A program made the position numbers and the translations under genes. From Cruorifilaria tuberocauda (taxonomy: Eukaryota > Nematoda > Chromadorea > Rhabditida > Onchocercidae), in the NCBI GenBank assembly GCA_013365365.1, contig JABVXU010000078.1:1-64000 (forward strand): a stretch of DNA of 64,000 nt, read 5' to 3'. The notes beneath the pieces are model-generated. The model was not told the DNA's origin. It ran no database searches and worked only from the letters and a program-made list of their open reading frames with translations. Of this stretch, positions 25,365 to 32,667 are shown in pieces. Position 1 is the first letter of the stretch. Every line of letters begins with the position of its first letter.

Positions 25365-28300
25365 ATGTTGGGAGTATTAAACTTAATTTTCATGTGTTTC
25401 GTACAATTAAAATTTTTGGTTCTCACCACTCTTTCAGTGGCGGATTCTGCTGATACTGGGACGGATATCTTCTTGAAAAAAATATTATTTGCATATCATT
25501 TGCTGCATATATTTGGATATGGAAATTTGGAAATCATTATCAATAAACTACGTCGATTTATTAAAGATGTATAAATATTAAATTCATAGTGTCCTAGGAA
25601 AAGTATTACTGTATCAGTTATTTCATCTTTCTTGCGAAATAGCTTGTTTAAAAAGCTTTATTAGTTTTTTGCTTGGTTCTATTTGAAAGATTTCACTTTT
25701 TCGATCTATTTGTAATCTTTCTATTTTCTAGAAATTTCTTTTCTCGTAATCCTTAAGAATGGTCATTTTATGATATTTATGGATCAGTACGAAGAAAGCC
25801 GGATCAATAAAGAACTTGTTAGTGAAAAATTGAAAATGTAAAATTGTTGCCAGAAATTAAGTTTCTACGTCTTTGCAACATTGTGTTGTTCAATACAGAA
25901 ACTTGAATTTTTCCTTGATAAACCTAGTCGTTGAAGATATGTAATTTACTGTATTTATTTTATTTATAGGATATAAGCATGCTTTGGTGCAAGGAAGAAT
26001 ATAGTTATAGTTCACCATGTTATAAAAATGGTCAGGACAAAACAACTGGTTATTGGATATCTTGTTTCGAACACTCCTGCTGGTTACCTAATTCCGAGGG
26101 TTATGATGTGGCCGGAATCGAATTTAACTTATTGAAGTATAATCAAACTTGGGAAAGAAGCGTAATGCATTCCAATGAATAGGTGATGTATTCTCCAGTA
26201 GGATTTATTATAAATTATTCTTTAATAAAGTCATAATGGACCAGCAGCTGACTTTTACCTGATATTATAGGTAGCGAAATAAATGTGATACATGATGATA
26301 CAGAACTGATCATTGTTATTTTTGTGATTCATAATGGCACGTAAGCTCTTCTGCCTTACATTTTCATTGCAGGGAATCTTTTATTCATCCAACAAAACTG
26401 CCATAAGTGATCTGTGTAATAATAAATGTACAAGGAACGAAATTTGCGAGGTAAGGCTTTCCTTTCAAACTCACTCAGTTTTTCGTGATTTCGATTATAT
26501 ATAGATTTTGCTTTTTGCCGTTGCTTAAAAACTATAAAACGAATTCCTGATTTTAGTTTGAATGCCAGGGTTACTTCAATCTTTCCTGAAAGGATCCTTA
26601 GCAGCGTTAGGAGCGCAAGAAGTAGAAATGTTGCAGAATTATATTTTGAAATATTCTGACAGGCAACAATTGAAAAGTGTGTTTGTATTGCTGGTTTTAT
26701 GCGGATCAATAACGGTTCCTATATTTCGATCACTATCAATCTGTTTAATTCATCATTCTCTGCTCCGAAATTTGAAATTATTGGTCTAAGAACTGTACAG
26801 CTCCCTCACTATAATATCAAATTGTTCATAAAATTTATTGACTCACATGGTATTTTACATTACTTTTTTATTTTTAATTTTGAGTAAAAATTGAATAGGA
26901 AGTGGATGACTTAGCGATAAACCTATCGATTTATATCCGTGCGCTTTTCTTTGATATCAACGTTGTCCACTTACACTAAATCTTCTTAGAAATTTAACCA
27001 TTCCTTAAATTCATGTTTTGTATGATAGGTTATTTATAATGCTCAATTATATCTTTTTGATCAATCTCTCTGCATTTGAAACTGATATTTTGAGTAATTC
27101 GACGATAAAATGAAATCAAGCACAAAGTTTTCAGAAGATCAATCAGATTTTACTTATTACTGGGAGGTTCTGGATGGAGGAGGTTTTGGTAAGCGAGCAC
27201 GTATACTGAACCAACTCTTATAATCACAAATGTATGTAATCTTACGTTTTATAAAATTAATCAGTTCAAAAATGGAAGAAGTAAGAAAAGAAAGGATAGA
27301 AGTATGTTAAGATGAATAATCTTTGAACGTTTATTTGTATCGTTTATTTGTAGAAATTGTTCAGATTCTCTTTTACATGCATATTTGTCAGTGGTAAAAA
27401 CAGAACTTTTCGTTCGTTAATTTTTTTAGCTTAGTTAAAAGAAGGAATGATGCGTTTACGTGTCACTATCACAAATCCTGCGGGGAAAAGCTTCAAGGAT
27501 ACGACGCTTAGAATTCTGGCCGAAAAACATGCGCCTGTAGCGTTGATACGCCCCCCTCAAGTGAAATCCATGTTAATGAAGGAAACCACTTAGTGTTGGA
27601 TGTCGAAGGTGATTTTTTCGTTATAATATTTGGGAATTTTGAAAATTTTGAGAATTTTCGGCATTAAGAAGCTGTCGAAATTGCCAGAAAAAATTAATTT
27701 TGAAAGTTTAATTAAGAAAAAGGTCACGTGAACAATTGAACTATGTAGTACGATGGAAAATGTTCTATGAAACTTCTTTAACAGTCTTCGAGAGCATGAT
27801 AAAAATGTAGACTTTAGTTTGCTCGGCTAAATACATTTCAGTTACTTCAGGTAGTTCTGATGATAGTGGACAGTCTCTGGAATTTGAATGGAAGCTTCTT
27901 AATGGTTCAGCAATTTCGTTACCTGCAGTGAAAACAGCTGTGCTTCGCCTCGATAATCTTGTTACTGGAAATTATACCTTTGGGCAAGTTTTTTAAAAAT
28001 TTTCGGATCAATTTTCTCACAATTCATATTCCATTAAAGTTTGTTATACAATGTTCTCATTTTTAATTGTAAAACTACAGAGACAGTCCATGCTTTTCAC
28101 CATTTTTCATCTTTTTAGCTATCGAGTTGTCTTTTGTTTCTTTTTTTTCGTTAATCTAAGATTTTGTGGTTTGAAATTTGTAGGTTGATAGTAAAAGATC
28201 AACAGGGAGCTATTGATGAGAAACGTGCAGAAGTAATTGTTGCTGAAAGTAGTTTCTATTTTTACATTCCAGAATTTCAAATTTTTTTATAAATTGGACC

Positions 28301-31300: not shown

Positions 31301-32667
31301 TTATTTTACCAGTAAGTGTAGCATTCCTGAATGGAAGGGAATCCTCAGATAATGCCGGAATAGTTCGATGGCTGTGGGGATGTTCCTGCTCATGATGACG
31401 TTCCTGCCTGCATTGTAAGTATTGCCTAATTTTCACTCCTATACACTATTTTTTTAAATCTTATTTGGCTGTTCGGCTGTTCTTAGAATCGCTCTGTCCT
31501 AAACTTTACATTCTGGTCGTCATAATTTTCAGACGTTCTTGGGCAATTCGAAAGTCGAGTCGGTAACGATATTGACTGGTTTGGTATCAGACATGTTTTT
31601 GTTTTGATTTAACAGTTTGGGATCATTCAGACGCAATGAATCCAACAACCGTCACATTAACTGCTTCTGTAGGTGATTATTCAATGATCATTAATTCTAT
31701 ATGATCTGTGACATTCAATCTTACTTGTTTCTTATGAAAAAGTTTTATCTTACATAATTATAGTATTAAATACAATTTAAGATAAAAATGTCAACAGCGT
31801 TATGAAGACAGTAACATCTTGTGTTTTCAGCCTGGTCGGTCCTGTACTTTGCGTTGTCGTCTGCATTATTGCTTTTCCTCATCACGTTATTAATTGTTCG
31901 AAAAAATCTGCAAACTTCTTCATATGAGAATACGAACATTAGTAAAGTTTCATTTAAAGTTTTTAAATTGATTCAGGAATGATTTGGTAAAGTTGAAATT
32001 TTGGTGTTTCTTTCTTTCTTCGTCGTTCGAGTTTTAAAGAAAGTTTTTTTATAGATGCTGCTATTTGCACTTAATATTCGCATGTTTTTTAGTGAAATAT
32101 CGCATATTCATTTGTTTACCACTTCCATTTGTAAATATCCTAGGTAATAATAATTCATTATCGGAAAAGGCAACGTTTACGTAAAGCTTTAGTTGATTCT
32201 GAAAGAAAATTGAATGAAGCCAAGTCTAATGGATATGTCAAAGGTAAGAATCAGTTTCTTCATATCGTAAATTTCAAATAAGTTTTAATTCCTGCCATTC
32301 CTTAGTTTATTCTTACGTTTGTATCATCTTTTCCCAATTCTTCAAATCTTATCAAGTTTCAAATTTTCATTTATTGTATTCTTTTTCAACTCTCTCTATG
32401 GAAATTAGAATGAGCGAAAATTCTGATCTCTTCCTTCATCAGTTGAAATGAATTCATCTTAGCATACAAAATGAGTAAAAATATTTTTAGCTAATTAAAT
32501 GTTGTTTTTGAGGGAACAAGGACAGCTCAACCTATACACTACTTCTGGCTGCAGAAAGTTCAAGTTCGGAGTCAAAAACAAGCAAATCGAGGAAATCAAA
32601 TCCCAGCAATCGACGGTTCATTTCCGATACTTACCGTTCCATTGCTGTATCTTTTGATTTCGCTTGA
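25365..32667 (+). pseudogene. KIAA0319-like PKD-repeat membrane protein gene with disrupted frame
   Basis: Encodes what was a type I surface protein of the KIAA0319/KIAA0319L family. Recognised exons: 25365-25436 (signal peptide, tentative), 25970-26161 and 26373-26450 (Cys-rich N-terminus), 26557-26676, 27135-27188, 27430-27608, 27851-27983, 28184-28248, 28431-28573, 29525-29676, 30053-30164, 30890-31038, 31259-31414, 31533-31672 (PKD domains), from 31831 (membrane helix), 32144-32243, 32555-32667 (Ser-rich tail, TGA). PKD signatures seen include [52 protein letters not shown] and TFRLEVADRK. The frame is broken at several points although splice phases otherwise agree: exon 26557 is one base off, in-frame TAG at 27432 and 30121, a base missing at C6 27551-27556, donor AT at 30165, and an extra base at G4 31376-31379 and at T4 31602-31605. 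The middle exon of PKD3 was not found. TRAPPC9 next door has no such faults, so decay is likelier than poor sequence, but assembly error is possible. Confidence 0.75.
30354..30425. repeat. 72-bp direct repeat, copy 1
   Basis: Bases 30354-30425 are identical to 34065-34136 in the same orientation. The unit begins TAATATGATTTG and ends CAGTCGAT. Copy 1 lies in the intron of the PKD gene between exons ending 30164 and starting 30890. Flanks differ on both sides. No open frame or terminal inverted repeat is evident. Confidence 0.9.

Follow-up and report, generated by a model that had tools for sequence, protein, structure and literature searches.

Gene content of the locus

The 64,000-nucleotide stretch of Cruorifilaria tuberocauda DNA analyzed here (contig JABVXU010000078.1, positions 1 to 64,000; referred to as the window) carries at 25392-32667, on the forward strand, the filarial orthologue of KIAA0319/KIAA0319L (K319). 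The locus lies directly upstream of TRAPPC9 on the same strand, with a gap of 1.5 kb (32668-34189). Exon order was mapped by tblastn, and a purpose-written spliced aligner, in which every frameshift, stop codon, or non-canonical splice site is tolerated but incurs a fixed penalty, was then run with four orthologue queries (Table 1).

Spliced alignment with the 931-aa protein of Acanthocheilonema viteae revealed 612 identical residues among 806 aligned. A protein similarity search scored 7993 candidates, a capped set, and returned at least 82 proteins at E ≤ 0.001. The read-through peptide of the locus matched filarial proteins best, with the A. viteae protein (931 aa, 72% identity) followed by those of C. 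johnstoni, O. flexuosa, and L. sigmodontis, and then by Toxocara; arthropod and vertebrate KIAA0319/KIAA0319L were more distant matches, so that KIAA0319-like proteins range in this search from nematodes to vertebrates. Pfam analysis identified four PF22352 K319L-like PKD stretches in the A. viteae protein and four in tandem in the X-marked read-through of the locus (E 7.8e-57), and in the PDB the A. viteae orthologue matched solved KIAA0319L chains best (E 6.3e-30). A single membrane helix appeared in the X-marked read-through as one peak of a hydropathy profile, and the exons of the cytoplasmic tail aligned with those of the orthologues by both tblastn and spliced alignment. Since the filarial and KIAA0319L protein matches, the Pfam matches, and the PDB matches agree, the family assignment made in the sequence-only reading that preceded this work, a KIAA0319-like PKD receptor gene, was correct, and its coordinates, PKD domains, hydrophobic membrane segment, and tail were all confirmed.

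Other features were noted outside these two genes. Kinase-like exons, which presumably resemble tau-tubulin kinase, occur at 17784-20200 of the window, and at least two open frames at 9634-12515 contain what we take to be homeodomain-like peptides. Elsewhere in the assembly, a 53-kb contig carries at 42897-46292 a bacterial coxA/coxB-like pair with open frames of 520 and 253 aa, which we assume to be Wolbachia-like and which may belong to a live symbiont or to an insertion; the best match of the bacterial cox gene was at 89% to a Rickettsiales MAG, in a comparison from which near records may be left out.

Table 1. Positions in the window of the K319 exon remnants, their lesions, and neighboring features
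Feature	Positions	Strand	Evidence and remarks
Exon 1 remnant, signal-peptide part	25392-25481	+	tblastn 48% identity, E 0.022 (weak match); spliced alignment
Donor after exon 1, reads AT	25482	+	another same-frame GT at 25569
Exon 2 remnant, closing in in-frame TAG at 26180	25970-26182	+	tblastn 60% identity, E 3.6e-24; stop with 3/4 queries
Exon 3 remnant, open frame	26373-26450	+	tblastn, spliced alignment
Exon 4 remnant, open frame	26663-26849	+	tblastn, spliced alignment
Exon 5 remnant, frameshift ~27191	27135-27231	+	4/4 queries
Exon 6 remnant, frameshift ~27555 beside six-C run	27435-27608	+	4/4 queries
Exon 7 remnant, open frame	27851-27983	+	spliced alignment
Exon 8 remnant, open frame	28184-28248	+	spliced alignment
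Exon 9 remnant, open frame	28449-28573	+	spliced alignment
Exon 10 remnant, without AG acceptor ahead (28734)	28736-28802	+	4/4 queries; at 28720 with O. flexuosa
Exon 11 remnant, frameshift ~29542-29547 in six-T run	29525-29676	+	4/4 queries
Exon 12 remnant, in-frame TAG 30121, then AT donor 30165	30053-30164	+	4/4 queries; donor at 30153 with O. flexuosa
77-bp duplicate inside intron 12	30354-30430	+	99% identical to 34065-34141
Exon 13 remnant, open frame	30890-31038	+	spliced alignment
Exon 14 remnant, net +7 insertion ~31381	31259-31414	+	frameshift with 4/4 queries
Exon 15 remnant, end of last PKD, frameshift ~31590-31612	31533-31672	+	4/4 queries; exon end by eye
Stretch where exons for residues ~652-811 (pre-helix region, C6 motif) are missing	31673-31830 (158 bp)	+	tblastn, genome search
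Membrane-helix exon remnant	31831-31941	+	tblastn 79% identity, E 2.5e-11; hydropathy peak
First of last two exon remnants, cytoplasmic tail, frameshift ~32152	32144-32243	+	tblastn, spliced alignment
Last exon remnant, cytoplasmic tail; stop codon in orthologues' place at 32665	32513-32667	+	tblastn, spliced alignment
Stretch upstream of TRAPPC9, duplicated in intron 12, acceptor-like TTCAG sites	34065-34141	+	sequence comparison
TRAPPC9, intact, 26 exons, internal control	34190-44869	+	spliced alignment

Disabling lesions and loss of an exon block

With the A. viteae query, the aligner returned 17 blocks, one of which (31533-31941) bridges a deletion, and the locus therefore retains 18 exon remnants. 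The exons proposed in the sequence-only reading were found, although their number had been given as seventeen and three splice-site losses had been missed in describing the splice sites as mostly intact. Sixteen events were reported with this query, of which five were set aside and 11 were counted as small lesions, namely, two in-frame TAG codons (26180 and 30121), six frameshifts (~27191, 27555, 29542, 31381, 31599, and 32152), two AT donors (25482 and 30165), and one lost acceptor (28734). Spliced alignment thus gave no open reading frame for the receptor, and the profile match to PF22352 at exon 12 itself holds internal stops. Nine of the 11 lesions were seen with all four query proteins, at positions shifting by at most 14 bases; three queries showed the loss of the exon 1 donor and the stop in exon 2, the C. 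johnstoni model being without those exons. The lesions range from exon 1 to the tail, and the longest lesion-free stretch comprises three exons. Of the six frameshifts, three occur within or next to homopolymer runs of four to six bases, and one more is adjacent to TT. Compared by eye with the exon 10 acceptor, the intron ends read through in two Onchocerca K319 models are longer.

Several candidate lesions were rejected. The GC donor of intron 7 (27984), flagged with three of the four queries, was judged to be probably old and was not counted; the E. elaphi K319 model reads on past this junction. The Loa model LOAG_12894 ends exactly at the same donor, which may be an old feature of filariae. 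The donor of exon 8, suspected by eye to be lost, proved sound in the spliced alignment. Four events obtained with the A. viteae query at 31702-31822 were dropped as products of a forced alignment, homologous sequence not being found at 31673-31830; the single event at 25120 and those within 31680-32100 that came from the remaining three queries were likewise dropped as forced.

Exons encoding the equivalent of A. viteae residues ~652-811 (~160 codons) are missing between 31672 and 31831. In the intervening stretch, tblastn with the four queries detected nothing up to E 10. The segment also had no match anywhere in the genome, in a search run without its own positive control genome; a comparable search did recover a 28-residue exon of K319. 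In A. viteae, six cysteines are located at residues 772-811, within the segment lost here. In the KIAA0319/KIAA0319L family, this six-cysteine C6 motif is described as sitting directly before the membrane helix (PMC5905272). The motif is absent from the locus and, to judge from the genome search, lost rather than divergent. The introns flanking the deletion share the same phase (by eye), and the deletion alone would therefore not shift the frame. The sequence-only reading, which had overlooked this exon loss, was right in calling several independent frame lesions, and the damage is larger than it supposed.

Copy number and orthologues in relatives

The genome assembly comprises 71.68 Mb in 1108 contigs. 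Both genome matches of PF22352, the sole match of a 901-bp DNA probe, and all 16 matches of the whole A. viteae protein fell at the K319 locus, and none of the profile, DNA probe, and protein searches found a second copy in the assembly. As far as is visible, the gene is therefore dead at its own place. A working copy might exist elsewhere, as a duplicate or in sequence absent from an assembly of so many contigs, in which case the K319 locus would be a decayed copy and the pseudogene would not be unitary. Against this stand the exclusive location of the protein and DNA matches and the position of the locus next to TRAPPC9, as in other nematodes, and we consider such a copy very unlikely.

Full or near-full-length K319 orthologues were found, as gene models of 779 to 931 aa, in four filariae (A. 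viteae, C. johnstoni, O. flexuosa, and L. sigmodontis). The Loa model has 330 aa and corresponds to exons 1-7. For E. elaphi, O. volvulus, O. flexuosa (a second model), and Thelazia, the models extend over the early portion of K319 alone, and these may be split models or cases of further decay. Brugia, Wuchereria, and Dirofilaria were missing among the K319 matches listed; clade-wide loss was considered on these grounds and dropped, since the same genera were also missing from the 43 TRAPPC9 matches and since Loa has a K319 model.

TRAPPC9 as an internal control

TRAPPC9 was aligned with the same program and penalties as K319. The Loa loa protein (1092 of 1243 residues identical) and the Cercopithifilaria protein (1105 of 1242) each gave 26 exons and no lesion, and all 25 introns are of the GT-AG type. 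Alignment with the E. elaphi model gave 27 blocks and three events (40187, 40480, and 44625), which were rejected as lesions and read as model faults, as this model departs there from the other two. The description of the adjacent 26-exon gene as perfect thus holds with two of the three query proteins. Under equal lesion density, the probability that all 11 small lesions would fall in K319 (~2.3 kb of exons, versus 3732 bases for TRAPPC9) is about 2.5e-5, a figure that counts splice-site losses as exonic and uses two exon ends that are 3 and 2 bases too long, with slight effect. A search of the organism's own genome with the PF08626 profile gave no match, and the controls were likewise without match.

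Probable loss of constraint and its dating

Relative-rate tests compared amino-acid changes found only in the window with those found only in one other species, with Onchocerca as the outgroup or with Thelazia added. For K319, the window carried more changes than A. viteae (74 versus 41, P = 0.0027; with Thelazia added, 62 versus 22, P = 1.5e-5) and than Cercopithifilaria (61 versus 38, P = 0.027; 55 versus 23, P = 3.8e-4). The difference was not significant with Onchocerca for Elaeophora (37 versus 23, P = 0.09), Litomosoides (77 versus 67, P = 0.45), or Loa (35 versus 29, P = 0.53); addition of Thelazia gave 27 versus 11 (P = 0.014), 66 versus 44 (P = 0.045), and 25 versus 13 (P = 0.07), respectively. 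For TRAPPC9, the comparison with A. viteae gave 32 versus 35 (P = 0.81; 0.88 with Thelazia), and those with Cercopithifilaria, Elaeophora, and Loa gave P values of 0.45, 0.32, and 0.14 (0.14, 0.79, and 0.058 with Thelazia).

At 173 outgroup-invariant columns of K319, the window differs at 13 and A. viteae at four (discordant columns, 10 versus 1; paired test, P = 0.012). The corresponding paired tests gave 11 versus 2 for Cercopithifilaria (P = 0.02), 12 versus 3 for Litomosoides (P = 0.035), 4 versus 2 for Elaeophora (P = 0.69), and 2 versus 2 for Loa (P = 1). Paired P values for TRAPPC9 were 0.36, 0.03 (Cercopithifilaria, nominally positive), 0.60, and 0.17. Among 172 columns invariant in the intact rows, 10 (5.8%) are changed in the window, seven of them at glycine or proline; the leave-one-out share ranged between 1.6 and 3.0% for five of the intact rows and reached 5.9% (3/51) for Loa. 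In the K319 tree, the end branch of the window (0.20) is the longest of eight onchocercid rows, the others ranging from 0.04 to 0.15, and in the TRAPPC9 tree it measures 0.084 versus 0.02-0.098 in other onchocercids. The rate and conserved-column results are modest and mostly point in the same direction. A faster change of the protein than in A. viteae, absent from TRAPPC9, supports a real loss of constraint over read error, with the reservation that this does not extend to every comparison.

The alternative of a sequencing or assembly error supposes that the gene is intact and the assembly locally bad. Half of the frameshifts occur at runs of four to six equal bases, with one more beside TT, and read errors are commonest at such sites. 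The two TAG codons and the two AT donors, in contrast, look like substitutions, and neither the +7 insertion nor the lost multi-exon block, whose sequence has no match elsewhere in the genome, is a run error. Such an error would have to mimic splice substitutions, an insertion of seven bases, the clean loss of an exon block, and faster protein change than in A. viteae, yet spare the adjacent 3.7 kb of TRAPPC9 coding sequence, which is clean with two of three queries; we regard this as highly improbable. That the gene is shortened and still working, its expression involving other exons or yielding a secreted fragment, would fit the open frames of exons 3-4, 7-9, and 13 and the joining of two introns of equal phase by the deletion, but is extremely improbable given that the lesions extend over the whole gene, never leaving more than three consecutive exons free of them, and given the changes at invariant columns, mostly of glycine or proline, although Loa has a similar share of changed invariant columns.

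When conserved and variable columns were compared to date the loss, the neutral share came to 0.16 (5-95% range, -0.23 to 0.52). As this range includes zero, the proposal of a recent unitary pseudogene in one worm lineage stands as to its unitary nature and is not established as to "recent." A 12-row TRAPPC9 tree places the window together with Cercopithifilaria, Elaeophora, and A. viteae (support 88/95, not starred); the well-supported set around this group includes Loa and one further row as well. PMC12693587 assigns two of these genera to group ONC4 and makes Elaeophora the sister of A. viteae and Litomosoides. K319 was most likely lost in one filarial lineage, which probably belongs to group ONC4.

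The K319-TRAPPC9 neighborhood

K319 and TRAPPC9 carry successive locus tags in O. flexuosa; the contigs encoding them have the same length in C. johnstoni, Thelazia, and Loa and differ in Toxocara. In Mesorhabditis belari, one model joins K319 (residues 75-597) to TRAPPC9 (residues 624-1566) in the same order. A short same-strand gap is thus combined with a conserved order, the order itself being taken from the Mesorhabditis model, and co-transcription of the pair as a candidate operon is plausible. A 77-bp direct duplication had only two matches in the assembly by genome search, one in intron 12 of K319 and the other upstream of TRAPPC9. It is conceivable, if doubtful, that an ancient nematode K319-TRAPPC9 operon is involved, in which the promoter and transcription of the dead first cistron would be kept for TRAPPC9, the intron 12 copy of the stretch, which resembles a trans-splice acceptor, would mark rewired transcript cutting, and K319 would persist as a transcribed leader.

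Interpretation and comparison with known systems

K319 is very probably a unitary pseudogene at its usual position upstream of TRAPPC9. The locus holds disabling lesions at the orthologous site, and no working copy was found in the assembly. With the gene in its usual place beside an intact neighbor and with many separate mutations, the lineage most likely lost it. The single orthologue would have worked in the shared filarial ancestor and would then have lost its coding function through several separate mutations in place, the lesions presumably lying in the DNA of the organism rather than in the reads. Translation initiated at the first start codon would end no later than codon ~102 and would yield a product with neither PKD domains nor the membrane helix. 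The locus should be expected to make no receptor.

Among the titles and abstract openings listed from the open-licence literature searched, no description of K319 loss in worms was found. Loss of KIAA0319L is reported to leave male mice infertile (PMC6039479). Natural loss of the gene in one worm, with the gene retained in related species, provides a test of its function and of what compensates for it. Annotators should be warned that automatic gene models at this locus will be false fragments.

Like members of the KIAA0319/KIAA0319L (AAVR) family, the worm locus has four PF22352 PKD stretches, a hydrophobic segment, and a short tail; it differs from them by its 11 small lesions and by the absence of the C6 motif. 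Like filarial operons, K319 and TRAPPC9 form a same-strand tandem, with a gap of 1.5 kb compared with the median of 906.5 nt given for validated B. malayi operons (PMC7704054); unlike these, the pair is known here from gene order, from which its co-transcription is surmised. Like unitary pseudogenes, K319 is present in one copy, in place, with its introns kept, several disabling lesions, and intact orthologues in relatives, and it does not differ from them in kind.
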